From positions 1 through 29,895 of IMG/VR virus record IMGVR_UViG_3300022839_000006: 29,895 nucleotides of DNA. One strand, written 5' to 3'. Below the pieces are notes generated by a model that was not told the DNA's origin, ran no database searches, and was given only the letters and a program-made list of their open reading frames with translations. The DNA is from a virus. Positions 3,768 through 20,922 of the stretch are shown piece by piece (the first letter of the stretch is position 1; each line of letters starts with the position of its first letter). The translations under genes and the position numbers were made by a program.

Positions 3768-4046
3768 ATGACAAAAAAGACAGACTCAGATGTTGAGTTT
3801 GACTTCGGATTTTCGTTCGTTGACGAGAATGTTGAAGCCAAACTCAAAGAACATTCATCACACAAAGAAGAGATGGAAGAATTGCAATCACGTGTAGATC
3901 TTCTATATGATACCATCACTCCGTTTCTTGACAACTTATGCAGAAACCCAAGCAGGTCTACTATTCTTTGGCCTGATAGAGTGGAAAAGATTACTGAATT
4001 TAAGACACGTTTGAAAATGATCACAGAAGGGAAACATAAAAAATGA
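3768..4046 (+). CDS. Small conserved protein between gp32 and uvsX
   Basis: 92 residues. The acidic/aromatic start (SDVEFDFGFSFVDE) is followed by a helical, probably coiled-coil part (AKLKEHSSHKEEMEELQSRV) and the block ILWPDRVEKITEFKTRL. I recall this last block from a small conserved gene at the same place in cyanophage-type T4-like genomes. Function unknown; its place between gp32 and uvsX suggests replication or recombination. Its stop overlaps the uvsX start (ATGA at 4043-4046). Confidence 0.75.
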   Translation: MTKKTDSDVEFDFGFSFVDENVEAKLKEHSSHKEEMEELQSRVDLLYDTITPFLDNLCRNPSRSTILWPDRVEKITEFKTRLKMITEGKHKK

Positions 4047-4951
4047 GTACACTACTTGAAAAGATGCTAAGCACGGGGAGTACCAAATCTTCTGCTGTTC
4101 TATCCTCATCGCCCTTTTTCAATGCAAAGGAAGCAATTCCTACCGACCTCCCAATTCTCAACATTGCATTTAGTGGATCTATTGATGGTGGGCTTCTACC
4201 AGGATTGACTGTTGTTGCAGGTGTATCAAAGAGCTTCAAAACTCTACTGAGCCTCTACTGCATGAAGGCATATTTGGACAAGTACCCTGAGGGCATTGCG
4301 CTACTATATGATTCTGAGTTTGGTATTACACCAGAGTACATTGAGAGCATCGACATCGACATCGATCGCGTTGTTCACATTCCCGTTAAGGATGTGGAGG
4401 AGCTCAAGTTCGATATGGTTCAAAAGTTAGATGCGATTGGCAAAAAAGACAAAGTGTTTATCATGATTGACTCGGTCGGCAACCTTGCATCTAAGAAAGA
4501 GCTAGAAGATGCACAAAACGAAAAGTCTGTCGCGGACATGTCACGTGCCAAGAGCTTGAAGTCGTTGTTTCGTATCATCACGCCATACCTGACAACTAAA
4601 GGAATTCCGTGCCTTGCAGTGAATCACGTATATTCAGAAATCGGCCTATATCCGAAGGCTATTGTTAGTGGTGGGTGTGTAACTGCAGGTACTAATATTC
4701 AGACCCCAACTGGTCTCAAGTCAATCGAGGATTTCAATGTTGGAGAAAGAGTCATTACGCAGTACGGAGACATGGAAGTATCGCATGTCTGGAATCCTGA
4801 TACACTTGATGATGGCAACCCTGAATGTTTTGAAATTGAATTTGAGGATGGTTACATTGTCACGTGTTCTGATGAACATAGGTTCATTGTTGATGGAGAA
4901 TGGGTCGCAGCTAAAGACCTTAAACTTGGTGCCGAATGTCAAGTCGTTTAA
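4043..4951 (+). CDS. uvsX: UvsX recombinase, N-terminal half fused to N-intein
   Basis: 302 residues: UvsX residues 1-211, then a 91-residue N-terminal split intein. UvsX is the RecA-like strand-exchange protein of T4-like phages. The Walker A is the UvsX form AGVSKSFKT (residues 59-67; T4 has GPSKSFKS). YDSEFGITPEYI and the Walker B strand KVFIMIDSVGNLASKKE (about 137-153) match T4 closely. The extein stops at IVSGG, where T4 UvsX continues MGGGTGPMYSA (L2 DNA-binding loop region). From Cys212 the sequence is intein: C1, then a beta-rich segment and the block B motif CSDEHRF. A stop follows, so the product is only functional after trans-splicing with the half at 5927. Confidence 0.93.
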   Translation: MSTLLEKMLSTGSTKSSAVLSSSPFFNAKEAIPTDLPILNIAFSGSIDGGLLPGLTVVAGVSKSFKTLLSLYCMKAYLDKYPEGIALLYDSEFGITPEYIESIDIDIDRVVHIPVKDVEELKFDMVQKLDAIGKKDKVFIMIDSVGNLASKKELEDAQNEKSVADMSRAKSLKSLFRIITPYLTTKGIPCLAVNHVYSEIGLYPKAIVSGGCVTAGTNIQTPTGLKSIEDFNVGERVITQYGDMEVSHVWNPDTLDDGNPECFEIEFEDGYIVTCSDEHRFIVDGEWVAAKDLKLGAECQVV

Positions 4952-4970
4952 AATAATGTTATGAGCAGAG

Positions 4971-5026
4971 TAAGAGAGTCCTTAGTTATTATAAATGATG
5001 ATGACAACAATCAAAGGACTCTCTTA
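4971..5026 (+). promoter_or_regulatory. RNA hairpin masking the endonuclease RBS and start
   Basis: A 13-bp perfect inverted repeat: 4971-4983 (TAAGAGAGTCCTT) pairs with 5014-5026 (AAGGACTCTCTTA), with a 30-nt loop. The 3' arm contains the Shine-Dalgarno (AAGGA, 5014-5018) and the A of the AUG at 5026. Read-through mRNA from uvsX would therefore hide the ribosome site. The loop holds TATAAATG (4990-4997), a near-match to the T4 late promoter. Confidence 0.75.
4990..4997 (+). promoter_or_regulatory. Possible late promoter inside the hairpin loop (TATAAATG)
   Basis: Seven of eight bases match TATAAATA. Transcripts starting a few bases downstream (around 5003) would keep the endonuclease RBS and ATG but lose the 5' arm of the masking hairpin. 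Confidence 0.45.
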
Positions 5027-5895
5027 TGAACATCATTTACAAGATCACATTTCAACACCGTCTGGCTCAGAACATTCAGCCTTATTATTACATAGGATCA
5101 AAAACTAATTGTACTGTAGTCGAAGGTGTTATATTAAACTCTAAAGGTAAACCATATTACGGCAGTTCAACATGGAAAAACTATTATGATATAGTAGAAT
5201 CTGACACTTGCACAGTAGAAATATTACAAGAAGGATTCACGGACCACAAAGAATTGTTAACGGCTGAATGTGCTGTACAGGAAGAGTTAGAGGTAGTAGT
5301 ATCACCAGAATATTTTAATAGATCATTAGCATCAGTCAGCAATTTCAATAACCCTCTATATGCTTCATATAAGCATGCAACGACTGGCAAAATGGTTAGA
5401 TTAGAAAGGACTCACGAAAAGGTTCTTGACGGAACTTATGTGGGTGTATCTAAAGGTGTAAAGTTTACTGAAGAACAACGTAATAGTCGTGGCAGATCAG
5501 GCAAAGAAAACAAGTTTTACGGAAAAACCCACACTGATGAAACCAAAGCTAAAATATCTGCTGCTAATACCGGAAAGGTACGTACTGAAGAGTTTAAGCA
5601 AGCTGTTTCGGACCGTTGTAAGGGTGTACCAAAATCTCCTGAACATCGAGCAAAGATTGGACGCCCTGGTTTGATTATGCTTAAAAATATCAATACTTTA
5701 CAAACAATTAGAATATCAATAGATGATGCTCTATTACTAGATAATACTACGTGGCTTAACCCACAAAAGGTTAATACAAAAGTTAAAAAGCCTTGTAAAT
5801 ATTGTGGTCGTCTGTTCACAAAAGGAAATATGAACAGATGGCATGGTGAAAAATGCAAAAGTAAGAGTTTACATCCAGATGATAGTTTATTATAA
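5026..5895 (+). CDS. GIY-YIG homing endonuclease with NUMOD3 repeats
   Basis: 289 residues. The N-terminal GIY-YIG domain shows IIYKITF then YYYIGSKTN, with a candidate catalytic Glu in ELLTAECAVQEE and the usual later Asn (EYFNRS). NUMOD3-type DNA-binding modules lie at about 162-212 (KENKFYGKTHTDETKAKIS; GKVRTEEFKQAVSD; GVPKSPEHRAKIG). A C-terminal zinc-finger-like CKYCGRLF...NRWHGEKC is seen in other phage nucleases. It probably cleaves intein-less uvsX alleles and drives spread of the split intein. It lies free-standing between the halves; the surrounding DNA is more A+T-rich than uvsX. Translation is probably gated by the hairpin at 4971-5026. Confidence 0.88.
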   Translation: MNIIYKITFQHRLAQNIQPYYYIGSKTNCTVVEGVILNSKGKPYYGSSTWKNYYDIVESDTCTVEILQEGFTDHKELLTAECAVQEELEVVVSPEYFNRSLASVSNFNNPLYASYKHATTGKMVRLERTHEKVLDGTYVGVSKGVKFTEEQRNSRGRSGKENKFYGKTHTDETKAKISAANTGKVRTEEFKQAVSDRCKGVPKSPEHRAKIGRPGLIMLKNINTLQTIRISIDDALLLDNTTWLNPQKVNTKVKKPCKYCGRLFTKGNMNRWHGEKCKSKSLHPDDSLL

Positions 5896-5926
5896 TTGAC
5901 CAATCCAACACACAAAAGGAAACAAT

Positions 5927-6499
5927 ATGAAAATACGCTCTATTAGATCAGTAGGTAAGTTACCTGTATATGATCTATCAGTAAACAGTGACAATTATGA
6001 TGAGCAGCAATATGTGCTGGAAAATGGTGTAGTTACTCACAATACGGGAATCATGTATTCAGCAAATACTGTGTTCATCATCAGCAAGTCACAAGAGAAA
6101 GACGGAACTGAGCTTGCAGGATGGAAGTTCACAATCAACATCGAGAAGTCACGGTACGTCAAAGAGAAATCTAAACTACCATTCACTGTAATGTATGAGG
6201 ATGGTATACAAAAGTGGACTGCAATCTTCGACATTGCGATGGAATCTGGCTTCATCACGAAACCGAAGGTTGGTTGGTACAATCTTGTTGATCCTGAGAC
6301 AGGCGAAGTAGACGAGAAGAACTATCGTCAGGCAGATGTGGTTACTAACAATGCTTTTTTTGAAAAACTTGTTAAAAACGTGGATTTCAAAGAGTTTGTA
6401 GAGCGCAAGTTCAAACTGTCTGCAACTCAAAAGAAGTCGGACGACAGCCACGGAGAAGATGATGCAGATGTGGAAATGGACATGGACACATACGAATAA
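5927..6499 (+). CDS. uvsX: UvsX recombinase, C-intein plus C-terminal half
   Basis: 190 residues, RBS AAAGGAAA 7 nt before the ATG. Residues 1-39 are the C-intein ending VVTHN; residues 40-190 are the UvsX C-half starting TGIMYSANTVFIISKS. It continues DGTELAGWKFTINIEKSRYVKEKSKLPF, matching T4 UvsX (TGPMYSADTVFIIGKR ... NVEKSRTVKEKSKF). The acidic tail (DDSHGEDDADVEMDMDTYE) is typical of UvsX. It needs the N-half at 4043 for any recombinase activity; the +1 Thr at 6044 is the splice acceptor. A hairpin terminator follows. Confidence 0.93.
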   Translation: MKIRSIRSVGKLPVYDLSVNSDNYDEQQYVLENGVVTHNTGIMYSANTVFIISKSQEKDGTELAGWKFTINIEKSRYVKEKSKLPFTVMYEDGIQKWTAIFDIAMESGFITKPKVGWYNLVDPETGEVDEKNYRQADVVTNNAFFEKLVKNVDFKEFVERKFKLSATQKKSDDSHGEDDADVEMDMDTYE

Positions 6500-6516
6500 A
6501 CAGTGTACAATTGAAT

Positions 6517-6543
6517 GATGGGCAGAGTGATACTCTGCCCATC
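6517..6543 (+). terminator. Hairpin after the uvsX C-half
   Basis: Perfect 12-bp stem GATGGGCAGAGT / ACTCTGCCCATC with a 3-nt loop, 18 nt after the uvsX stop and before the gp41 start at 6571. No long T-run, so it is a terminator or mRNA end stabiliser. Confidence 0.7.
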
Positions 6544-6570
6544 CCATTTCCATTATAACAAGAGGTCCTG

Positions 6571-7956
6571 ATGATAGAGCAAACTATTCTTGCTAATCTA
6601 CTTTACAATGGGGAGTTTTGTCGCAAAGTCATCCCATACATCAAAGAAGAGTATTTTGATGATGTTGCTACCAAAAAGATATTTGCATCTTTCTCTGAAT
6701 ATGTCAGTACATACAAAGAACCACCTTCAATTGAGGCTCTCAAGATTACGCTGGAGGCGCGTAAAGATCTCAACGAGGATTTGTTTAAAGCTGTTAATAC
6801 AGCCGTCGACGAGTTGAAGATTGATGCAGCAACTAATCAAGATTGGCTTTTAGGCGAGACAGAGAAGTTCTGCCAAGACAAGGATCTGTTCAATTCAATT
6901 AGAAAAGCAATTTTGATTCTTGATGGGCAAGACAAAGAGTTTGACAAGGGTGCTATTCCTAAGCTGTTGTCTGATTCGCTTGGAATCAACTTTGATAGTC
7001 ACATTGGGCATGATTATATTGAAGATGCAGACAGTCGTTATGATTTCTATCATCGCACAGAAGAGCGAATTCCTTTTGACATTGATCTGTTGAACCAAAT
7101 CACTAAGGGTGGACTGCCCCGCAAATCCTTGACGTTGATTTTAGCGACCACAGGTGGTGGCAAAAGTTTGATGAAATGTCACATGGCTGCAGCTTCTCTT
7201 ATGCATGCCAAGAACGTCCTCTACATAACAGCTGAGATGGCTGAGGAGAGAATTGCAGAACGCATTGATGCTAATCTATTAGACGTCACAATTGATCAGC
7301 TACGAGAAATGCCCAGAGAAATGTTCAATACAAGAATTGCCAAGGTTAAAAGCAGAACGCCCGGAAAACTTGTAGTCAAAGAATACCCTACAGGGTCTGC
7401 TCACGCAGGACACTTTAGACATCTTCTCAATGAGCTGAAACTAAAGAAGGGGTTTGTTCCTGATATTATCTTCATTGATTATCTCAACATCTGTGCATCT
7501 TCTCGTGTGAAGGGTGCAGCAGCCGCAAACTCATACACACTGGTCAAGTCAATCGCTGAGGAAATACGTGGTTTAGCAATGGAGTTTGATTGTCCTATTG
7601 TATCGTCAAGTCAGTACAACCGCGGAGCATACGATTCGAGCGACGTTGACCTCACAAACACGTCTGAATGTATCTACGTTAAAGAAACAGTTACCATGAG
7701 TGACGGAACGTCGAGATGCATATCTGACCTGAAACCAGGCGACAAAATTAAAAGCGAAGACAGTACAAAGCTAGTCACGATGGTCCACCATCCTAAGATG
7801 AAGGATTGTGTCAAGATTAAAATGAACAGCGGCAAGTCAATCACTGTCAGTAAGGATCACGTATTTCCATCTATGTCAAACGACGGTGTTGTGTCGCGAC
7901 TATCTGTCAGTCAGGGACTAAATGTAGGTTACAGTCTTAATGTGGTAGAGGATTAA
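6571..7956 (+). CDS. 41: gp41 replicative helicase, N-terminal part fused to N-intein
   Basis: 461 residues: gp41 residues 1-366 plus a 95-residue N-intein. gp41 is the DnaB-type hexameric 5'-3' fork helicase. The N-terminal helical domain is about residues 1-140; then FDIDLLNQITKGGLPRKSLTLILATTGGGKSL contains Walker A (about 193-200). VLYITAEMAEERIAERI, DIIFIDYLNIC (Walker B) and IVSSSQYNRGAYDSSDVDLTNTSE follow. T4 gp41 continues TSES at this point, but here E366 is followed by Cys1 of an intein (CIYVKETVTMSDGTSRC...), with block B VSKDHVFP and then a stop. The rest is encoded from 7960, only 3 nt later. Activity requires trans-splicing. Confidence 0.93.
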   Translation: MIEQTILANLLYNGEFCRKVIPYIKEEYFDDVATKKIFASFSEYVSTYKEPPSIEALKITLEARKDLNEDLFKAVNTAVDELKIDAATNQDWLLGETEKFCQDKDLFNSIRKAILILDGQDKEFDKGAIPKLLSDSLGINFDSHIGHDYIEDADSRYDFYHRTEERIPFDIDLLNQITKGGLPRKSLTLILATTGGGKSLMKCHMAAASLMHAKNVLYITAEMAEERIAERIDANLLDVTIDQLREMPREMFNTRIAKVKSRTPGKLVVKEYPTGSAHAGHFRHLLNELKLKKGFVPDIIFIDYLNICASSRVKGAAAANSYTLVKSIAEEIRGLAMEFDCPIVSSSQYNRGAYDSSDVDLTNTSECIYVKETVTMSDGTSRCISDLKPGDKIKSEDSTKLVTMVHHPKMKDCVKIKMNSGKSITVSKDHVFPSMSNDGVVSRLSVSQGLNVGYSLNVVED

Positions 7957-8238
7957 CATATGAATGACAGCCAAATGGAAAAGATGCAGAACGATTGTTT
8001 TGTTAAAGCTCATCATATGATCGCCAATAACATGACCAAAGAGATGGACTTGTTTGACCTGACAGATCTGCTGATAAGCATGGAGATGGAGAAGGAGGAG
8101 AAGCAACAGGTTGAAGACAGTAAAATTGATTATAATGATACCATTGTAGAAATTGAGAATGTCGGCATGGTGGAAACGGTAGATATATCTGTAACAGGTA
8201 GTCAATTGTTCTACTGCAACAACATCTTGACAAAAAAC
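7669..8238 (+). mobile_element. Split intein in gp41 helicase, no endonuclease
   Basis: N-intein 7669-7953 (95 aa, Cys1, block B SKDH) and C-intein 7960-8238 (93 aa, ending LFYCNNILTKN), +1 Ser. The last part (VETVDISVTGSQLFYCNNIL) strongly resembles the known gp41 split inteins, whose C-ends read like LFYANDILTHN. Two oddities: the penultimate His is Lys here, and about 55 residues precede the usual start of the C-intein. The halves are separated by only 3 nt, with no nuclease gene. Confidence 0.87.
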
Positions 8239-8574
8239 AGCATGGGGATTGCTCACACTGCAGATTGTATCCTCGGCTTGATCTCTTCAGAAGAATTGGA
8301 GGCGATGGGCCAAATCATGATCAAGCAGTTAAAAAACAGATGGGGCGATCTTGGATTCTATAGACGGTTTGTTGTTGGAATAGACAGATCAAAAATGAAG
8401 CTGTATGACTTGGAAGAAGGTGCGCAGAGCGATGTTCAAAACGAGACAAGGAAAAAACAACAACCACGAGAGGATGAGGATAAGCCTACGTTCGATACCT
8501 CTAACTTCGGACAAGAGGAATCATTTAGAATGAAACCTTCTTGGAAGAAAACTAAGGCAGACGGATTCATATGA
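7960..8574 (+). CDS. 41: gp41 replicative helicase, C-intein plus C-terminal part
   Basis: 204 residues; RBS AGAGGA lies inside the end of the upstream ORF. Residues 1-93 are intein: a Met/Glu-rich helical extension (1 to about 55), then the canonical C-intein ending TKN. Residues 94-204 are the helicase C-end: SMGIAHTADCILGLISSEELEAMGQ, then KNRWGDLGFYRRFVVGIDRSKMKLYDLEE, matching the conserved end of gp41 (TSES.G....AD...KNR). The tail (QPREDEDKPTFDTSNF...) is hydrophilic. Joined extein length 366+111 = 477, against 475 in T4 gp41. An alternative start at M41 or M43 would give a normal-size C-intein. Confidence 0.91.
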   Translation: MNDSQMEKMQNDCFVKAHHMIANNMTKEMDLFDLTDLLISMEMEKEEKQQVEDSKIDYNDTIVEIENVGMVETVDISVTGSQLFYCNNILTKNSMGIAHTADCILGLISSEELEAMGQIMIKQLKNRWGDLGFYRRFVVGIDRSKMKLYDLEEGAQSDVQNETRKKQQPREDEDKPTFDTSNFGQEESFRMKPSWKKTKADGFI

Positions 8575-8669
8575 TAAGATAGTTGCCTTTTGTGTAGAGG
8601 CGCGCTATGATTAGGTAACAGCTCAACGCGTTGAGTTATAAATACAAACACAGCCGAAAGGAAATGAAG
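8575..8669. promoter_or_regulatory. Intergenic control region with palindrome and late promoter
   Basis: Contains a perfect 14-bp palindrome CTCAACGCGTTGAG at 8622-8635, immediately followed by a perfect TATAAATA at 8637-8644 and an AAAGGA RBS. The palindrome could be an operator for a dimeric regulator of the late promoter, or a small hairpin end for the gp41 transcript; the sequence does not decide. Confidence 0.55.
8637..8644 (+). promoter_or_regulatory. Late promoter octamer (TATAAATA)
   Basis: Perfect match to the T4 late promoter, 25 nt before the ATG at 8670. Confidence 0.6.
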
Positions 8670-9197
8670 ATGATTGACTATGATGTACTGAAGAAGCAGA
8701 TTGACGCGATCAAAGGAACCACGTTTGCTGGTCTGACTACAAAGACCTCTGTCAAGCTCAAGGGTGGCAAGAAGAACCTGCAGCAAGGTCGTGTTACCAA
8801 AACTACAGAGAAGGCAAACATCATGTTGTTTTCCAACTCGTCTGTTAATGGATATGAAGGCATGGTCAAGCGTCGTATGGTTGCAGAAGGCAAAGATCCA
8901 GAGACATTTGTACTCAAGCCAAGGCCATGGGGCAAGCGTATTGACAATAGCCCGTTCATTGAACACAACGGTAAGTATTACCTCGAGTGTTTTTTCATTA
9001 ATGCAGGGACATCTTCATACTTCCTTGACGATGAGCCTATTGACAGGAAAGACGTTGAAGGTTTGGACGATCCGAAAGAGAAGACCGAAACACAAGTGGA
9101 ATCTCAGGGTGGAATTGACGACAAGGTTATACTGAGAACATTTGCTCTCGAGTCTATCCTTTCTATTAAAATCAAGAGTGAGGAGTACACAGCGTAA
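8670..9197 (+). CDS. Conserved phage protein of unknown function
   Basis: 175 residues from the ATG at 8670, chosen over the ATG at 8664 because AAAGGA sits 7 nt before it. The N-terminal part is basic (SVKLKGGKKNLQQGRVTKTTEKANIMLF). The middle has KRRMVAEGKDPETFVLKPRPWGKRI and PFIEHNGKYYLECFF, patterns I associate with a conserved hypothetical found in many large phages. Nucleic-acid contact is possible from the Lys/Arg content, but no catalytic motif is visible. Its stop overlaps the start of the phosphoesterase gene (TAATG), so the two are probably one unit under the late promoter at 8637. Confidence 0.75.
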   Translation: MIDYDVLKKQIDAIKGTTFAGLTTKTSVKLKGGKKNLQQGRVTKTTEKANIMLFSNSSVNGYEGMVKRRMVAEGKDPETFVLKPRPWGKRIDNSPFIEHNGKYYLECFFINAGTSSYFLDDEPIDRKDVEGLDDPKEKTETQVESQGGIDDKVILRTFALESILSIKIKSEEYTA

Positions 9198-10765
9198 TGG
9201 ATACAGATGAGAACCTTGTTGGGTTATATTTGAAAATTGTTGAGACAAAGAAAGATCTCCCTGTCTACAACGATTTTCTTGCACTTGATGTTTCGAGAAG
9301 TACTATCAGACACCACTTTGGTGGCATCGAAAATCTACACGCACAGATGAGAGAAACACACGAAGAGGAGCTCAAGGTGCACTTCTCTACAGTGGAAAGC
9401 ATTTTTGATCCTAATCGATCAATTGACGTATCAACCACCAAGTTTGTGATTACGACAGCAGTTGCTGACTCACCTGCCGATAAAAATTTCCTTGCTGCTT
9501 TAAAGCTATATTGCGATACGAACAGTGCACAGCTCGTAATCATGCCTTGCGAAAGTGTTACCAACAGTTTCGAGAAAAAGACTGCAACATTTGATCCAAT
9601 CTTCAACGAAGCACACTTTAGAGTTGTCAATAGCGATGTTCAGCTCAACAGCAATTTTTCTTTGTGTAGCATTCAGGTATCTGCAAAACAGATCAAATCA
9701 ATCACAGGCCTTTCACGTCTTGGAAATCGTGAAGGTTCGTATGTGTTCGCAAGCCCAAAACAGTTCCTTGAGTATGTTCCATCAGGTAACAACCGTGGTA
9801 AGAACTATGCTATCATGACGCCCGGTGCGTGTACAAAATCATCATACTATACAGACACGTTTGTATCAAAGCGTCTTTCATATATTGCAGAATCAGACCA
9901 CACAATCGGTGCAATCATTGTTGATATTGAAAACGAAACCAAGTTTGATTTTAGACAGATTCAAGCTGCATCAGACGGATCCTTTATTGATGTGGGGACA
10001 CAATACAACTCTGATGGTACTATGTTGCAAGTTCCTGTCAACGTCATTCTTGGCGATCTACACTCGACGTTTATTGATAAGGAGGCTCTTGATTATTTCA
10101 TAGAAAAATTCAAGAGCCTGAAGGTTGATTGCATTTTTCTCCATGATGTCTTTGACGCATATTCAATAAATCATCACGTTAAAGACATTGCCGAGAAGGC
10201 TGCTAGATCAAATAAAGGGGCAGATTCACTAGAAGAAGAGGTGCTTTTGACATTTGACACAGTCAAGTACGTTGCGGACAAATTAAATCCAACGACCGTG
10301 AACATCGTCAAATCAAACCACGATGAGTTTCTCGATCGTTATCTTGCAGCAGGCACGTATGTTGAGGATCCTAAGAACCATCTATTCAGCTTGAGAATAG
10401 CACCGACGCTTTTTGACGAGGGTGAAGATGTGCTAAAGGCTGCTATGAATCTCGTTGAGACTGTTCCTAACAACTGGAGATTTCTTTCACGTGAAGATTC
10501 TCTGAGGATTGGCGGTGTCGAATGCGCCGCGCACGGTGATCTTGGCATGAACGGAGCCAAGTGTTCTCTGAACTCGTTGGAGAAGATTTACGGTGATAGT
10601 GTCACGGGACATACACACTCTGCAGCAATACAAAGATCAATCTTTAGAGTCGGAACCCTTTCTGATCTTAACATGAGATACAACAGAGGTCCGTCTTCAT
10701 GGACCCAGACTTGTTGTTTACTATACAACAACGGTCAGAAACAACTGATCAATTTCATACGCTAA
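9197..10765 (+). CDS. Calcineurin-like metallophosphoesterase with N-terminal HTH-like segment
   Basis: 522 residues. The C-terminal half has the metallophosphoesterase metal motifs in order: LGDLHSTF (about 284), a FLHDVFDAYSINHH block (about 315, family GD.x.D), VKSNHDEF (about 373, family GNHD), AAHGDLG (about 444) and VTGHTHSA (about 470). The N-terminal part includes DVSRSTIRHHFGGIENLHAQ (about 31-50), which reads like a helix-turn-helix. The middle 200 residues are unassigned. Family members hydrolyse phosphodiesters or phosphomonoesters with two metal ions; the substrate is unknown. Tight coupling to the preceding gene suggests a shared role, possibly in DNA or RNA handling. Confidence 0.8.
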   Translation: MDTDENLVGLYLKIVETKKDLPVYNDFLALDVSRSTIRHHFGGIENLHAQMRETHEEELKVHFSTVESIFDPNRSIDVSTTKFVITTAVADSPADKNFLAALKLYCDTNSAQLVIMPCESVTNSFEKKTATFDPIFNEAHFRVVNSDVQLNSNFSLCSIQVSAKQIKSITGLSRLGNREGSYVFASPKQFLEYVPSGNNRGKNYAIMTPGACTKSSYYTDTFVSKRLSYIAESDHTIGAIIVDIENETKFDFRQIQAASDGSFIDVGTQYNSDGTMLQVPVNVILGDLHSTFIDKEALDYFIEKFKSLKVDCIFLHDVFDAYSINHHVKDIAEKAARSNKGADSLEEEVLLTFDTVKYVADKLNPTTVNIVKSNHDEFLDRYLAAGTYVEDPKNHLFSLRIAPTLFDEGEDVLKAAMNLVETVPNNWRFLSREDSLRIGGVECAAHGDLGMNGAKCSLNSLEKIYGDSVTGHTHSAAIQRSIFRVGTLSDLNMRYNRGPSSWTQTCCLLYNNGQKQLINFIR

Positions 10766-11427: not shown

Positions 11428-11465
11428 TCGCGTCCGAATGGCCACTGTATTCTTGGAGAGTGAAC

Positions 11466-12677
11466 ATGAACTACGAATCGGGACTTGATGTTGCCTTGAA
11501 CCTTCTACGTTCAGAGGGACGTTACAGGACGTTTGTTGATATTGAGCGCAAAAGGGGTGCATATCCTACCGCTACGTGGTACGATATAGATGGAGAACGT
11601 CGAGACATTGTTGTGTGGTGTGGCAACGATTATCTCGGCATGGGTCAACATCCTGTAGTTTTAGAGGCAATGGCTGTTGCACTTGAGGCAACAGGAGCGG
11701 GTTCAGGCGGCACGAGAAACATATCAGGAACCACAGTATACCACGGCAGACTTGAAGCGGAACTGTCTGATTTGCATCAGACAGAGGCTGCTCTTGTATT
11801 CACCTCAGCATACAATGCCAACGATGCTACATTGTCAACGTTGCCCAAGCTCTTTCCAGGCCTCATCATATATTCCGATGCGCTGAATCACGCTTCGATG
11901 ATTGAGGGCATGAGACGTAATGGTGGCGCAAAGCGTATCTTTAGGCACAACGATGTTGACCATCTACGTGATCTACTTGCTGCTGACGATCCATCTGCTC
12001 CAAAGTTAATTGCATTCGAATCTATATACTCGATGGATGGTGATTTTGCACCGATAGAAAGAATATGTGATCTTGCGGATGAATTTAACGCTCTTACGTA
12101 CATTGACGAGGTACATGCTGTCGGCATGTACGGGCCACGTGGAGCAGGCGTATGTGAGCGTGACGGTCTGATGGGTAGAATTGATATTATCAACGGTACA
12201 TTGGCCAAAGCCTACGGCGTGGCAGGTGGCTACATCGCTGGATCAGCCAAGATGTGCGACGCAATACGATCTTATGCGCCAGGATTTATATTTACGTCCT
12301 CTATGCCTCCTGCCGTTGCTGCTGGGGCAGCAGCATCAGTACGTTATTTGAAAACCGCGCAACATATGCGCGACACGCACCTACTTCGTGTCAACATGTT
12401 GAAAGGACACTTTAAAAGGATTGGACTACCTTTGATTGATAACGGCAGTCACATTGTTCCTGTACATGTAGGCAACCCCATCCACTGTAAGGCATTGTCT
12501 GACATGTTACTAGAACAACATGGAATTTATGTGCAGCCTATCAACTTTCCTACGGTCCCACGTGGAACTGAGAGACTTCGGTTCACGCCTTCTCCTGTTC
12601 ACAGCATTGGCCAAATAGACCATTTGGTTCAGGCGATGGACGAACTTTGGCATAGGTGCACACTCGGCCGCTCTTAG
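11466..12677 (+). CDS. hemA: 5-aminolevulinate synthase (ALAS)
   Basis: 403 residues from the ATG at 11466 (GGAGA 6 nt upstream; a GTG lies at 11460). ALAS condenses glycine and succinyl-CoA to 5-aminolevulinate using PLP, the first step of tetrapyrrole synthesis by the C4 pathway. Alpha-oxoamine synthase hallmarks: WCGNDYLGM (51-59), [12 protein letters not shown] (79-90), [17 protein letters not shown] (212-228) and GTLAKAYG with PLP lysine K248, the number known for Rhodobacter capsulatus ALAS. The C-terminus is complete ([13 protein letters not shown]). The glycine/ALAS motifs distinguish it from KBL and BioF relatives, though those are the alternative. The C4 pathway implies an alphaproteobacterial host. 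Likely an auxiliary metabolic gene boosting haem or other tetrapyrroles. Confidence 0.92.
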
Positions 12678-13097: not shown

Positions 13098-13105
13098 TAT
13101 AAATA
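13098..13105 (+). promoter_or_regulatory. Late promoter octamer (TATAAATA)
   Basis: Perfect octamer 34 nt before the GTG start at 13140, in the divergent intergenic region. Confidence 0.6.
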
Positions 13106-13139: not shown

Positions 13140-14696
13140 GTGACAAAAGAACCTGTCGATGTTATTAACAAGGCTGTAGAGAAGATCGACGACGTCGACA
13201 AGGCCGTAAAGAAGAGAAAAACAGACAATTCAAAATTTGTAGAATTGGACCCAACCACAGCTGATGGCGGCGATCCTATTACAGAAGTGTCAATTCTTGA
13301 CGAGAGAGCCCCACTGTCTATCCAACAGCGACGTGCACGTGGAAGGACGATGAGACGGTATAAAGGGCGCATTGCAATGGCACGTAAACGCGCTGCAAAG
13401 CGTAAGGCTTCACCTGAAAAGTTAAAGACACGTGCACGTAAAAAAGCAAGAGAGATTATTAAGAATAGACTTGCAGCGGGAAAGAAATACTCAGAGATGT
13501 CCTCGTCCGAAAAAATACAACTCGATAAGAGACTTCTTAGAATATCACCCACAGCAATTAATCGGATTGCCACAAGGCAGTTGCCAACCGTTCGAAAAGC
13601 GGAAATGGAGAGACTGGCAAGGGTCCGCAGTACCGACGCATCGCCAACCACAAAAGAGAGCATTGATACGCAGTTTGACAATTTCATAAACGAAATGCGT
13701 GAGTGTCCCCCAAAGGTACATCACCGTGCATTCACTAAAGAGGGTCGGGTCAAATTTGACAGAAGATTTAAAATGTACCGTAGCAAAGAAGATAAATTGG
13801 ACGAACTGTTTGCTCAAAATTTTATTGAAGATGCTGCAGATCTGATGAACATCACAGAGAGCAAGTTGCAAAAAGACAAAGACGATCCTTGCTGGGATGG
13901 CCATGTTCAGCTTGGCACTAAAATGAAAAACGGCAAGGAGGTCCCCAACTGCGTCCCGACCGAATCTACTGATCCATATGACCGCGAACAAGGAACTGAT
14001 AGCCTTGTCAGAATATATAAGGGCGATACACCAGGTCAAAACGAAAACTATTACCAAACAGATCTCGGCTCAGATTTCACAAACCTTACAAGAGGCGATC
14101 GTGTAAGGTTTACACAACATACAATGGACGTAGTGACAGATGGTGAAAAACAGGGAACAGTTGTTGGAAGTACTGTAGAACACCTACGCGTACGCGATTC
14201 GGAAGGATTTCTATACCTTGTGCGTCACCGCGACGCACAATTAATTGAGGATTTGAATTCCATTTTTGAATCGCGTTTTAATGAGAATGTGGTAGAATAC
14301 ACCCTAATGGAAGACGATGAAGTATGTGGTGTATTTACTCAGAGCCAGATGGCCTCTTTCGAAAAGGTTGTCGACAAACTTTTTGCAAAATTTGGGATAA
14401 ACTTTGACTTTACACGACACTTCCGCGACCGGATGTCTGATATAAGAAACAACCCCTGTATCAACGTCAAAGAGCTCGCACTGATGATTAACAAAATTTA
14501 CAAAAAGAAGGTTGCAGGGGTTGACCTGTTGTCTAAACATGTGAATACTGAAGTGGTAATTAAAGACATGCAGACGGATCTTAATATGCCAATAGCAATT
14601 GAATATGATAGGTCGAGAGATGAATTGCGTGTAGTTTCAAAAACAATCATGCGCAAAAAGAACTTCCGTACACCAAATCCTGAGGTCAAAGTGTGA
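13140..14696 (+). CDS. Large basic phage protein, probably virion-associated
   Basis: 518 residues, GTG start with GAGGA upstream. Residues about 57-165 are very rich in Arg/Lys (RAPLSIQQRRARGRTMRRYKGRIAM..., then KRAAKRKASPEKLKTRARKKA), suggesting nucleic-acid binding. The middle holds DPCWDGHVQLGTKMKNGKEVPNCVP (about 250-274), a short motif seen in many hypothetical proteins of large phages. The C-terminal part has TRHFRDRMSDIRNNPCINVKELALMINKIYKK, a block I recall from marine T4-like phages. Function unknown. Late promoter and place before the leader-peptide genes suggest a structural or packaged protein. The stop overlaps the next start (GTGA). Confidence 0.7.
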   Translation: MTKEPVDVINKAVEKIDDVDKAVKKRKTDNSKFVELDPTTADGGDPITEVSILDERAPLSIQQRRARGRTMRRYKGRIAMARKRAAKRKASPEKLKTRARKKAREIIKNRLAAGKKYSEMSSSEKIQLDKRLLRISPTAINRIATRQLPTVRKAEMERLARVRSTDASPTTKESIDTQFDNFINEMRECPPKVHHRAFTKEGRVKFDRRFKMYRSKEDKLDELFAQNFIEDAADLMNITESKLQKDKDDPCWDGHVQLGTKMKNGKEVPNCVPTESTDPYDREQGTDSLVRIYKGDTPGQNENYYQTDLGSDFTNLTRGDRVRFTQHTMDVVTDGEKQGTVVGSTVEHLRVRDSEGFLYLVRHRDAQLIEDLNSIFESRFNENVVEYTLMEDDEVCGVFTQSQMASFEKVVDKLFAKFGINFDFTRHFRDRMSDIRNNPCINVKELALMINKIYKKKVAGVDLLSKHVNTEVVIKDMQTDLNMPIAIEYDRSRDELRVVSKTIMRKKNFRTPNPEVKV

Positions 14697-15748
14697 TACG
14701 TTTCAAACAATATCTTTCTGAGAGCGCTCAAGCAGCTTCTACATTTAAAGATGCGCGAAGTATTGTATCTTATATCAAGAGCGAAAGGACCAAACAAAAT
14801 TATATTGACGCTCTGGCAGCTCTTGAAATGGCAGCAGAGCAAAAAGAGATATACAACGCAAGGTTCTCTGATCACAAATCGGCCATAACACGTGGAATAG
14901 AATATGCGTACAGGACGTTGTTCGACGAAATAAAGGCTGATGTAATCAGATCAGGCCAAGAAACACATGACCTTTGGAGCATGACATCTGCAGGCGACAT
15001 CAAGAGAATAACGAAGATATTTAATAGCATGTCCCCAAAGATTTCTACAGCAGTTGCGTTCACAGATGCTGTTTCAGGAATACACGATGGTTTCAAGATC
15101 TTAAAGGGCTACGTCAAATCGGGGAAGCCACCTGCTCAGCCGAAACCAGGACAGTTCTACAAGCCTATAGCTTCTGTAGACGCAACAAAATTAGCGTTGA
15201 AGTTTATGAGAGAAGCCTCAGGCTCGTTTTCAAAAGAGTTGAAAGTAAGTGTCACTAATCAAATGATGGGCGCGTATGAAAAAATTCTTACCATTACCGA
15301 TCCAAAAAACTTGCCAAAAGATCCTAACACTCAACAAGTTGCTAATACAATCTTTATTGTAAGAGGTACTCGTAGAGATGCTACACTAGAGCTAATAGAC
15401 GGGCACAAGGCAAGAGTAACAAAATTAATTGATGATAGTGTTGCAATGGTCGTTGATAGATTCGTTGCTAAAAACTCTTCGAAGCTTGCGCTCATACTTC
15501 AGAAAAAAGACACGCCAAAGACACACAAAATTATAAAGACAAATATAAACAACGGCATGGTAGAAAATACTATGGTGTTTGAATTTAATGACGGCAGCAG
15601 TTTTGTCATTACGAGCAGTGTGTTGTTCAAGCGGAGTACAAACGGAAAGCTCTTTTTTCAATATCCAACACGTTTCCGAGACGTGAAGATGGCTGATGGA
15701 TCAGCAATGAAAGGCCCATCTGAAGAAAAAATGATTAAAGAATTTTAG
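14693..15748 (+). CDS. Hypothetical protein with capsid-targeting-like N-terminus
   Basis: 351 residues, GTG start overlapping the upstream stop. It opens MIRFKQYLSESAQA, resembling the T4 internal-protein leader MKTYQEFIAEA, which targets proteins to the prohead and is removed after Glu by the gp21 protease. The remainder is mixed alpha/beta with a Lys-rich C-terminal part (PKTHKIIKTNINNG... then FNDGSSFVITSSVLFKR) and no catalytic motif that I recognise. It could be an internal head protein or another virion component. Confidence 0.65.
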   Translation: MIRFKQYLSESAQAASTFKDARSIVSYIKSERTKQNYIDALAALEMAAEQKEIYNARFSDHKSAITRGIEYAYRTLFDEIKADVIRSGQETHDLWSMTSAGDIKRITKIFNSMSPKISTAVAFTDAVSGIHDGFKILKGYVKSGKPPAQPKPGQFYKPIASVDATKLALKFMREASGSFSKELKVSVTNQMMGAYEKILTITDPKNLPKDPNTQQVANTIFIVRGTRRDATLELIDGHKARVTKLIDDSVAMVVDRFVAKNSSKLALILQKKDTPKTHKIIKTNINNGMVENTMVFEFNDGSSFVITSSVLFKRSTNGKLFFQYPTRFRDVKMADGSAMKGPSEEKMIKEF

Positions 15749-15772
15749 AAATACATAAAAAGGACAATCCTG

Positions 15773-16306
15773 ATGATTAGATATAAGGCATACACACAAA
15801 GAACAGTTACAGATCCAACGTCCCAGTGGAAAAATACAGCTCCTGTGAAATATGCCAGACATCTCAGTATGTTTTTTGGACAACCTGAAGAATTGACCGA
15901 AAAAAGAGCTGTGTGGTACAACAAAGACGGTTTCATAAGAATAGAAGTGTTGGACGAGTTTGTTCTACACGCCTCACCAACCCCACACCACGATTATGTG
16001 TATTGCTATGTCAATTTAAAAATTCCACACGAAATGGCTGATGACCTAGCAATGAGCAGTGAAAGCATTCTTATCGACAATCTCAAGAGTGAGCTTGGTG
16101 CACGGTGTTCAAGTCTGAGCGCAAATGCAACAACAATACAATACGTAATGGATGTCGTCGAAAAAAGAGTCGTTCCATCCAAAGCAGAGTATGAAAAAAG
16201 AATTAAGTCTATGAGTAAAATGTTCGTGGATGGTGTAAAGTTCGAACTTGATTGGTGGCCCGATAAATCAGGCGACACTGATCCTGATAACCCATATTAT
16301 AAATAA
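15773..16306 (+). CDS. Hypothetical protein with short aromatic/basic N-terminus
   Basis: 177 residues, RBS AAGGACA. It starts MIRYKAYTQRTV, a looser version of the MKxFKxY leader of its neighbours, without the expected Glu. The body has FFGQPEELTEKRAVWYNKDGFIRIEVLDEFVLHASPTPHHDYVYCYVNL (a beta-rich run; first and last parts only matter) and a C-terminal acidic/Trp end (FELDWWPDKSGDTDPDNPYYK). No recognisable family. A TATAAATA octamer overlaps its stop codon. Confidence 0.65.
   Translation: MIRYKAYTQRTVTDPTSQWKNTAPVKYARHLSMFFGQPEELTEKRAVWYNKDGFIRIEVLDEFVLHASPTPHHDYVYCYVNLKIPHEMADDLAMSSESILIDNLKSELGARCSSLSANATTIQYVMDVVEKRVVPSKAEYEKRIKSMSKMFVDGVKFELDWWPDKSGDTDPDNPYYK
16298..16305 (+). promoter_or_regulatory. 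Late promoter octamer (TATAAATA)
   Basis: Perfect octamer overlapping the stop of the preceding gene and 31 nt before the ATG at 16337. Confidence 0.6.
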
Positions 16307-16336
16307 CCACAAACAACATTTAAAAAGAGGACTACA

Positions 16337-17089
16337 ATGAAAAGTTTCAAGGAATTCAACGTTACAGAGGGTCACGATCGTTACCCTGGCGATGACATGA
16401 CGCAAAAAGAACTTCGGATTGCTATTAACTCTGCAAGCAACATACTTGAAATGATCGACAACGGTGCCACAATCATGCGGTGGCAGATCAGCGCAATTGT
16501 AAAGGCATCAGACGAACTCGCATCTGTTTACACATCAATGAGTGCTGACATGGGTGATTATGACATGGGTGACGACTCTGACGAGATGGAATATGAGTAC
16601 TCCACCATGTATGGCGAAGGGTACGAGGAAGATGACATTGCGCTCGGTGGAACTATAATATACAAGCAAAACGGAATGTACAACCTTGCAAAGGCGACGA
16701 GGAAAGGTCGTGGCGTGGTTCACACGTCAACAAAAGATACAGTGCCCCTACATAACATTGTATCAACAGACCTGTCAGATTGGAATTCCTTTAAGAACAA
16801 GCCGATCAAAGAATCTACAAACGAGGCAAATAGCCCATACAGAAAAGCTGCCACTGCTTTGTGGAATGCAGCACAACCTTTTAAAGGTAGAGACCGTGAG
16901 GATCTTATGATGCATCATAAGCTTCTGCGTAGTGTAGATCCTGCCGATCACAAATCTTCTTCTGAATTCCTAAGGAATCTTGACACAGCAATGGGGGATA
17001 TTGTTAGCGACGCTGTTCATAGAAATAGCAGCAAAGCAAATTCCTTGAAATGGCACAAGGCTGCAAAAACGACGCGCATCAAGGACTGA
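16337..17089 (+). CDS. Phage protein with leader-like N-terminus and acidic middle
   Basis: 250 residues, RBS AGAGGA. The N-terminus MKSFKEFNVTEG fits the T4 capsid-targeting leader form (MKTYQEFIAEA). Residues about 24-70 (ELRIAINSASNILEMIDNGATIMRWQISAIVKASDEL) match a helical pattern recurring in proteins of marine T4-like phages. The middle (about 71-100) is Asp/Glu/Tyr/Met-rich low complexity (MGDYDMGDDSDEMEYEYST). The C-terminal part is basic. Probably virion- or prohead-associated, which is inference. The stop lies just before the start of the next gene. Confidence 0.65.
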   Translation: MKSFKEFNVTEGHDRYPGDDMTQKELRIAINSASNILEMIDNGATIMRWQISAIVKASDELASVYTSMSADMGDYDMGDDSDEMEYEYSTMYGEGYEEDDIALGGTIIYKQNGMYNLAKATRKGRGVVHTSTKDTVPLHNIVSTDLSDWNSFKNKPIKESTNEANSPYRKAATALWNAAQPFKGRDREDLMMHHKLLRSVDPADHKSSSEFLRNLDTAMGDIVSDAVHRNSSKANSLKWHKAAKTTRIKD

Positions 17090-17090
17090 T

Positions 17091-17810
17091 GTGCAACAAA
17101 TGAAGAAGTTCAGCGAATTTCAAAAAGAATGTAAATATGGCCTCTATTTAGAGGCCATATTTCTACACGAAAAAGGTACACTGGACGAGTTTGAAATTGT
17201 AGGGAGACTAAAAAGGTACTACAATTTTATCAAAGACTTTGCCCAATACGCAAAGGTGAGCATCAAGGACGTTGCTGAACTATTAAAAAACAAGAAGGTG
17301 TTTGATTTTTTCAGCAAGATTAAATTCTCTGTGGGCAATATATTCAAGAGGGTTCAATCAGGATTCAAACACTTTCAGGATCTTAAAAAAGCAATCGCAG
17401 ATTATCTCGCATCAACGAAGGTAGTAAAGTGGACCGAAGAAAAACTCAAAGATCTTGACACATTTCTGTCTAAGCATCCTAAAACGAAAAGAATGGCAGG
17501 CATCGCAGTTGGCGCAATTCTACTATACATCTGGCTGAATATGAGTTTCACAGGCGACTTTGATTATGACTTCGATCAGTCAGCATTGCTAGATGCATTG
17601 TTAGGCAAGTTTACGTTAAGTTCTATTTTTGCAGGTCCTGAAGGTGTTAAGCTGATTTCGCTATTCGTAACAGGTACGTTGTTTAGTTTTCCGTGGCCTG
17701 GTCCACAAGCTGCACTGTTCGTAATTTCCTTGTTGTACGGCCTCGCAAAAACATACAAAGTAAGAGATGTTATGGCCAAACTACAAGTAGCGAGACGAAA
17801 CGTAGTATAA
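17091..17810 (+). CDS. Membrane protein with leader-like N-terminus
   Basis: 239 residues from a GTG with AAGGA 5 nt upstream; an ATG three codons later gives MKKFSEFQKE, again like the phage leader form. Residues about 60-135 are basic and helical. Three hydrophobic segments follow: about 139-153 (MAGIAVGAILLYIWL), about 184-200 (VKLISLFVTGTLFSFPW) and about 204-217 (QAALFVISLLYGLA). It is therefore a multi-span membrane protein, perhaps acting during DNA delivery or lysis. A perfect 13-bp hairpin lies inside its first 25 codons (17133-17162). Confidence 0.65.
   Translation: MQQMKKFSEFQKECKYGLYLEAIFLHEKGTLDEFEIVGRLKRYYNFIKDFAQYAKVSIKDVAELLKNKKVFDFFSKIKFSVGNIFKRVQSGFKHFQDLKKAIADYLASTKVVKWTEEKLKDLDTFLSKHPKTKRMAGIAVGAILLYIWLNMSFTGDFDYDFDQSALLDALLGKFTLSSIFAGPEGVKLISLFVTGTLFSFPWPGPQAALFVISLLYGLAKTYKVRDVMAKLQVARRNVV
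17133..17162 (+). repeat. Perfect hairpin within a coding region
   Basis: AAATATGGCCTCT (17133-17145), loop ATTT, AGAGGCCATATTT (17150-17162). Located about 43 nt after the start codon of the membrane-protein gene at 17091. It could slow ribosomes, be an RNase site, or be an attenuator. Confidence 0.75.
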
Positions 17811-18816: not shown

Positions 18817-18939
18817 ATGGACATTAAGAGACAGATAGAAAACGCCCTTGACAAAAAACTGAACGACCAAATCTTTCAATTTCAAAAACAGATCACAAGA
18901 TTTGGTCGTTCAAAATTCGTCCTAGATTGTAATATCTGA
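18817..18939 (+). CDS. Tiny conserved-looking ORF (40 aa)
   Basis: MDIKRQIENALDKKLNDQIF..., helical and charged, ending KFVLDCNI. It begins 2 nt after the previous stop and its TGA overlaps the next ATG (TGATG), filling the gap between two real genes exactly. This coupling is the main evidence. No function recognised. Confidence 0.55.
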   Translation: MDIKRQIENALDKKLNDQIFQFQKQITRFGRSKFVLDCNI

Positions 18940-20367: not shown

Positions 20368-20922
20368 ATGTCAATCAAACAGATAATCAAAGAAGCGATG
20401 GATAGAAATCCCCTTGCTCTTAAAGAAGCACTGGAAGCAGAACTGAACGCACGTGTCGCTGTCGTCATTGAAGCAAAAATGCAGAAAATGGAAGACGATC
20501 ATGATGACGATGATGACGATGATGATGATGATGATGATGATGACGACGATGATGATGACGATGATGATGATGACGATGATGACGACGATGACAGTATGGA
20601 CGAAGCTGTTAAGGTAATGAAGGATCTGGGCGGAAATACCAAAGCTGTTTTTGACACCGATGGCAGCATGACTCTTTTCAGTAAAGATTCGTCCGGAAAG
20701 GACATGGTAATTCTCGAGCCGAAGCAAGTGGAAATGGTACATAGTCAGCTAATGAAAAAAGACAAATCCAAGAAGGTAATAAAGGATCTGGGCGGAAACA
20801 CCAAGGCCGTTTTTGACACTGATGGCAGCATGACTCTTGTCAGCAAAGACTCGTCCGGAAAGGACATGGTAATTCTCGAGCCGAAGCAAGTGGAAATGAT
20901 ACATAGTCAGCTAATGAAATAG
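20368..20922 (+). CDS. Poly-aspartate repeat protein, possibly gp67-like prohead core
   Basis: 184 residues. The N-terminal helix (MSIKQIIKEAMDRNPLALKE... up to VIEAKMQKM) resembles T4 prohead core protein gp67 in pattern and in being followed by a highly acidic run. Residues 46-75 are 30 consecutive Asp, encoded by mixed GAT/GAC (20503-20592). Then come two nearly identical 49-residue repeats (from KVMKDLGG and KVIKDLGG, period 54 residues), each with FDTDGSMTL and ILEPKQVEM. Prohead core proteins are acidic scaffold peptides. The repeats are not part of T4 gp67, so this is a gp67-like N-terminus plus unknown repeat domain. Confidence 0.65.
   Translation: MSIKQIIKEAMDRNPLALKEALEAELNARVAVVIEAKMQKMEDDHDDDDDDDDDDDDDDDDDDDDDDDDDDDDDDSMDEAVKVMKDLGGNTKAVFDTDGSMTLFSKDSSGKDMVILEPKQVEMVHSQLMKKDKSKKVIKDLGGNTKAVFDTDGSMTLVSKDSSGKDMVILEPKQVEMIHSQLMK
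20503..20592 (+). repeat. GAY trinucleotide tract coding 30 Asp
   Basis: 90 bases of uninterrupted GAT/GAC codons. The opposite strand reads as poly-Ser or poly-Ile shadow ORFs. Likely prone to length change. Confidence 0.95.
20611..20919 (+). repeat. Two tandem 147-nt direct repeats, 162-nt period
   Basis: Copy 1 is 20611-20757 and copy 2 is 20773-20919, separated by a 15-nt linker (KDKSK). Differences are few and mostly silent, pointing to recent duplication. Confidence 0.9.

Follow-up and report, generated by a model that had tools for sequence, protein, structure and literature searches.

What do four neighbouring phage genes encode if their products resemble one another in little beyond their first ten or so residues, and if those residues read like the leaders that direct internal proteins into the head of phage T4? 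Such a run of genes occurs in a 29,895-base window (bases 1–29895 of the 208,230-base virus record IMGVR_UViG_3300022839_000006), whose replication genes are T4-like as judged from their translations and from the gene order of phage phiM12. The four, here called genes 1–4, lie on the same strand between a gene 41-like helicase and a gene 61-like primase. A preliminary description of the locus had suggested that they might encode internal head proteins injected with the DNA. Having followed up that suggestion, we think that the block probably does encode capsid-targeted cargo of a T4-like phage – proteins that would be loaded into the head, be trimmed by a gp21-type protease, and leave together with the DNA to act early in the host. 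We infer packaging of the four products from their leaders, a protease gene, late promoters, the distribution of the tag, and tagged relatives in published virion proteomes.

The N-termini of all four products fit the pattern M-[KI]-x-[FY]-x-x-[FY]. Gene 1 (14693–15748, + strand, 351 residues) has a GTG start, MIRFKQYLSESA, and the leader MIRFKQYLSE/S (residues 1–10, 14693–14722; the stroke marks the candidate cut), and gene 2 (15773–16306, + strand, 177 residues; start MIRYKAYTQRTV) has the leader-like MIRYKAYTQR (15773–15802). Gene 3 (16337–17089, + strand, 250 residues; start MKSFKEFNVTEG) carries MKSFKEFNVTE/G (16337–16369), and gene 4 (17100–17810, + strand, 236 residues), which starts MKKFSEFQKEC, carries MKKFSEFQKE (17100–17129). 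The four N-termini are thus present as first written and the block lies where it had been placed, but the fourth start is most probably 17100, not 17091, and the run extends past the end first given (17150) to the end of gene 4. Of the two candidate codons, the 93%-identical relative, contig L012, contains just the ATG corresponding to 17100; that codon, rather than the GTG at 17091, is therefore most likely the start of gene 4. Codon substitutions relative to L012 are mostly synonymous (45 synonymous and 26 nonsynonymous in gene 1, 33 and 8 in gene 2, 18 and 9 in gene 4; gene 3 has indels and was left out of the count), which argues that these frames are real genes.

Phenylalanine or tyrosine occupies residues 4 and 7 in all four products. 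These are the positions of the T4 capsid-targeting sequence (CTS), and a T4 review describes them as the ones that matter for targeting in internal protein (IP) III (PMC9026906). The preliminary description had treated MKTYQEFIAEA as common to the T4 internal proteins; in the T4 record it begins IPII and IPIII, but IPI begins MKTFKEFTSTT, MKTFKEFTSTTTPVSTITEA. Gene 3 is identical to IPI at seven of residues 1–10 and has no similarity to it beyond them. The bodies are unrelated: no pair among genes 1–4 and the leaderless gene just upstream, gene 0, is similar at E values up to 1.

Short N-termini can look alike by accident. A scan of the complete record with M[KRI]x[FY]xx[FY] – a check the preliminary description had proposed – matched 5 of 334 called genes, where 200 residue shuffles gave a mean of 0.84 and a maximum of 5; the total reaches the shuffle maximum, so the count by itself is only mildly high and says little. 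The arrangement is another matter, with four of the five matches consecutive (gene ranks 20–23; P ~3e-6), and clustering of this kind exceeds chance. Homologues of genes 2 and 4 also retain the leaders, and the pattern is in excess over controls in sequence databases, as detailed below. These results disfavour chance likeness, and we regard it as very improbable.

Consistent with a head-loading route, the record encodes the gp21-type protease whose presence had been posed as a check: an S77 prohead protease (PF03420, E = 2.2e-38, over the cut-off). It stands in a gene order that reads as T4's, namely portal, core gene, protease, gp22 and gp23. Between portal and protease, at the place of gp67/gp68, lies a gene (record positions 86766–87467) that bears a like leader, starting MKSFKKLIAEVAQ. 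Its phiM12 counterpart, gp058, likewise lies between portal and protease and starts MKSFKQLVETVN; in a scan of the phiM12 genome this gene beside the protease was the only convincing leader match, two or three others being doubtful.

A leader on a gene beside the protease, together with the agreement with T4 in targeting residues and protease site, speaks against a signal that is common to late genes but unrelated to the prohead, serving for instance to attach proteins to the tail or baseplate, to contact a membrane or to aid expression. In favour of such a signal is that the packaging of the tagged marine proteins described below is deduced solely from their presence in purified particles. 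We consider it improbable, if somewhat less so than chance likeness. A leader at the gp67/gp68 place also fits a different alternative, in which the core-targeting signal is genuine and the proteins are parts of head assembly (core or scaffold helpers, or internal structural proteins) rather than host-acting factors; an assembly phenotype ascribed to T4 IPIII (PMC9026906) points the same way.

The block is also predicted to be transcribed late, from T4-type late promoters (TATAAATA) before genes 0 and 3. One (13098–13105, + strand) lies 35 bp upstream of gene 0 (13140–14696, + strand, 518 residues), which has no leader and overlaps gene 1 by four bases; the other (16298–16305, + strand) lies 32 bp upstream of gene 3. 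The window contains seven such boxes against 0.71 expected, and 23 of the 34 boxes in the whole record sit 5–120 bp upstream of the start of an open reading frame (ORF), among them the putative gp22 and gp19 genes. Outside the window, a further leader-like gene (MMSFKQHVNE; record positions 174499–175119, + strand) begins 31 bp after a late box; it gave no family match below E = 0.01.

Candidate processing sites are uneven across the block. The T4 processing site, L/I-x-E (PMC9026906), served as a yardstick at residues 8–10 (10–19 in the IPs). Gene 1 has a perfect L-x-E site there (LSE), gene 3 has VTE at residues 9–11, one residue off and with V in place of L/I, and gene 2 has no Glu near its leader. 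Gene 4 has no site at residues 8–10 and has L-D-E at residues 28–30 (17181–17189). In an alignment of 15 gene 4 sequences (the window and 14 of 17 relatives, with L359, L360 and L393 omitted as duplicates), L28 and E30 stand out as invariant from an N-terminus that otherwise varies, and for this reason E30 is the likely cut.

The leader is widespread in viral sequence. A DNA pattern coding for MK[ST]F[KQ][EQ]F-x-x-E occurred in at least 120 IMG/VR stretches, against none for a permuted control with the same codons in another order, and had 7 matches in 257 Gb of bacterial and archaeal genomes. Among the matches listed for IMG/VR, 121 of 124 were at or near ORF starts (88 at the frame's first start, 33 within 25 codons, and 3 deeper). 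A second pattern that fixed only residues 1–7, MKTFK[EQ]F, again occurred in at least 120 IMG/VR stretches and left Glu unconstrained. In the 107 distinct frames among its listed matches, which are not independent because families recur, Glu occupied residue 9 in 44% and residue 10 in 59%, compared with 1–9% elsewhere between residues 8 and 25; these figures come from second-pattern frames alone, since the pooled set contained loci selected by a pattern that itself required Glu at residue 10. The peak at residues 9 and 10 would correspond to the place of gp21 cleavage. When 20 tagged contigs, mostly fragments, were searched for the protease, 10 had a match, 9 of which passed the cut-off; the count stands without a matched viral control set.

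Behind the leader, the proteins are diverse. Once the leader was removed, 251 tagged frames among the matches listed fell into 115 sequence clusters, a figure that includes some spurious frames and in which single linkage merges some families. A Pfam scan of 30 tagged frames identified ART-PolyVal (L086, 9.7e-24), GNAT (L033), phage lysozyme (L110), a DPBB_1 lytic transglycosylase (L243) and adenylate kinase (L270), along with a methyltransferase (L051) and a weak ADP-ribosyltransferase match (L128, 4.8e-4), both below the cut-off. S-adenosylmethionine (SAM) lyase was found in L252, L261, L023, L310, L277 and P-SSM2 gene 114. One contig (L074, 5915–9422, – strand) holds a dense cassette of five tagged frames within 3.5 kb, mostly of unknown family.

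That the tag elsewhere sits on enzymes (SAM lyase, ART-PolyVal, GNAT, kinase) counts against a role of genes 1–4 in head assembly, as does the finding of a single relative each for genes 1 and 3, which would be unusual for core assembly parts. The lack of a match between genes 1–4 and any effector family leans the other way: searches of PHROGs, Pfam and NCBIfam returned nothing informative for them. On balance an assembly role seems unlikely, though it is the strongest of the alternatives. In phage records, tblastn found no match for genes 1, 2 or 3 and one distant match for gene 4 (Phage NCTB, 34%), and megablast of 10 kb gave no match.

The leaders can be compared with those of relatives in IMG/VR contigs. 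The one relative of gene 1 is 93% identical and has the leader unchanged. Gene 4 has 37 IMG/VR relatives, and 14 of the 17 examined match the leader regex; the misses are L390 (MRNSILTY) and L392 and L393 (MLSFREF, with both aromatics kept). The gene 4 body has an invariant hydrophobic core, YIWLNMSF, and one clear hydrophobic stretch, so that a membrane role after ejection is conceivable. Its structure model is all helical (predicted local distance difference test, pLDDT, 61.5) and had no Foldseek match in the PDB at E = 0.001 or better; the gene 2 model (pLDDT 44) was not used.

Gene 2 has eight IMG/VR relatives, of which four have a leader, three carry the domain within longer leaderless frames, and one is cut by the contig end. 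Among the tagged ones, L354 has a canonical tag, MKTFRQFITE/AVDSLLSQWKN, and L352 begins MKSFKQF. Within the longer proteins the domain is preceded by VAE/S (L351), ISE/S (L353) or VSE/S (L356). The Glu-Ser junction of these fusions thus lies where the free protein has its leader and Glu, as expected if a protease frees the domain either way.

Tagged proteins have already been seen in virions of other T4-like phages. S-SM1 virions were reported to contain a putative cytidylyltransferase, T4-GC190 (PMC3037559); it begins with MKKFSAFLNEAERSF and is encoded between gp41 and gp61, like the block in the window. In S-CREM2, whose virion list comprises 52 proteins (Table 3 of PMC10665884), the SAM hydrolase (MKDFDSFLEE; Pfam S-AdoMet lyase, 2.3e-19), a kinase (MKRFDAFLTE), a cytidylyltransferase (MKNFSSFLTEA) and ORF13 (MKDLHSFLTE) are all tagged. 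ORF15 has the leader shifted by one (MNFSEFNES), and in the Cas9-annotated ORF12 it lies slightly inside the annotated start (LRFASFMAEA). This last frame (7704–10313, L395), annotated as a CRISPR-Cas9 nuclease, gave no Pfam match at E = 0.01, and the Cas9 name needs checking. A detected cytidylyltransferase of S-SZBM1 (PMC9146016) starts MRFRQFIIEA, again with the motif shifted by one.

The regex fixed beforehand, M[KRI]x[FY]xx[FY], matched 3 of 52 S-CREM2 virion ORFs and 0 of 173 others (p = 0.012). A strict form gave 4/52 against 0/173 (p = 0.0026) and a relaxed form 8/52 against 3/173; both were shaped after the S-CREM2 N-termini had been viewed, and the pre-fixed regex is therefore the fair test. 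The authors of the S-CREM2 study raise carry-over as a possible source of enzymes like these (PMC10665884). The common head-loading leader argues for real packaging over carry-over. The virion lists of relatives give presence, not N-termini.

These lines of evidence uphold the likeness to T4 capsid-targeting leaders from which the work began: a gp21-family protease, late promoters, a portable tag with a Glu peak, and tagged relatives in virions. If genes 1–4 do encode head cargo, the first ~10 residues of each product, with aromatics at 4 and 7, would dock it on the prohead scaffold core during late assembly. The S77 protease would cut after Glu, at E10 in gene 1, probably at E11 in gene 3 and probably at E30 in gene 4, and so free the body inside the head; the body would be ejected with the DNA and act early in the host. 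The gene 2 product would be targeted yet uncut, or cut elsewhere.

Several observations weigh against this interpretation. The record-wide leader count falls inside the shuffle range, gene 2 lacks a processing Glu, and genes 3 and 4 lack an exact site at residues 8–10. The virion evidence comes from relatives and none of it from this phage, and is itself mixed, with the S-CREM2 authors' caution standing beside it: tagged S-SZBM1 proteins _191 and _192 are missing from the 30-protein virion list of PMC9146016, and many of the S-CREM2 virion proteins that are not products of tail or head genes are untagged (for example ORF155, 156 and 160). Finally, the adenylate kinase among the tagged proteins (L270) is no obvious effector.

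The surroundings of the block hold further features. By eye, the C-terminal domain of gene 0 resembles the leader-tagged protein L099, and its CW..NCVP module also adjoins a leader in L264. The idea that this module always follows a cleavage site was dropped: 1 of 37 distinct occurrences lay directly after a leader and many have Glu two residues upstream, observations made without a control. The phiM12 homologue of gene 0 is gp159, and no leader was seen in its neighbours at the syntenic place. Downstream of the four genes lies an endolysin gene. A 40-residue remnant adjoining the block (18817–18939, + strand) corresponds to a 138-residue gene with a like start in L012 (8210–8626) and may reflect gene loss or insertion. 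Elsewhere in the window are a 5-aminolevulinate synthase (11460–12677, + strand; NCBIfam TIGR01821, 1e-193), present in L012 too; UvsX-like, gene 41-like helicase and ribonucleotide reductase frames seemingly split by putative intein-like or homing-endonuclease sequences (4043–8574 and 27628–29724, + strand); and a protein in which two near-identical repeats of ~40 residues come after a long run of Asp, its gene having a late box upstream (20368–20922, + strand).

The closest parallel to the block is T4 itself. IPI, IPII and IPIII likewise combine aromatics at residues 4 and 7 with mutually unrelated bodies, a gp21-type protease gene and late promoters, and the T4 lysozyme gene e neighbours ipII and ipIII, much as an endolysin gene follows the block here. 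The block differs in that its bodies have no sequence likeness to the T4 IPs, an exact processing site occurs in gene 1 only, and it is known from sequence alone; its relatives suggest that the host is not an enterobacterium. The virion enzymes of S-CREM2, S-SM1 and S-SZBM1 share the same kind of leader and a T4-like genome, and the S-SM1 gene shares the gp41–gp61 interval, but these cyanophage proteins belong to enzyme families and have been detected in particles, whereas genes 1–4 have no family assignment and are so far predicted proteins. In SPN3US and phiKZ a prohead protease also cuts head cargo after Glu, but at A/S-X-E and with mostly long propeptides, as described in PMC5694885; our scan for leaders turned up no convincing case in the phiKZ genome. 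The Dar proteins of phage P1 are injected antirestriction proteins with an N-terminal capsid signal, but the account in PMC9024508 gives them N-termini without a common consensus and a signal longer than nine residues.

The CTS, its use for spotting T-even ip genes and the anti-restriction roles of Ip1–3 are already in print (PMC12373910), and the T4 review raises the CTS as a possible general protein-loading route of T4-like phages (PMC9026906). Within the open-access literature (subscription papers and preprints lay outside the search), we found no paper on this leader in T4-like phages that are marine or otherwise distant. What may be new is how widely the tag occurs and how it ties in with virion lists.

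We put at about even the broader proposal that MK-x-F-x-x-F-x-x-E is a portable loading tag across the T4 superfamily, beyond coliphages. It would mark injected enzymes – SAM lyases, ADP-ribosyltransferases, kinases, acetyltransferases and nucleotidyltransferases – in T4-like phages, marine ones among them, and part of this set would be made as polyproteins with internal L/I/V-x-E cleavage sites. Cargo would then be readable from sequence, and the block would be one such cassette. For most T4-like phages it is not known what enters the host along with the DNA. If the leader does mark head cargo outside coliphages, injected proteins would become predictable from genomes and metagenomes, and the leader would supply a rule for re-reading published virion proteomes that list such enzymes as possible carry-over. 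SAM lyase is an anti-restriction enzyme, and its place among the tagged families suggests that phages of this kind may be disarming restriction as soon as infection starts.

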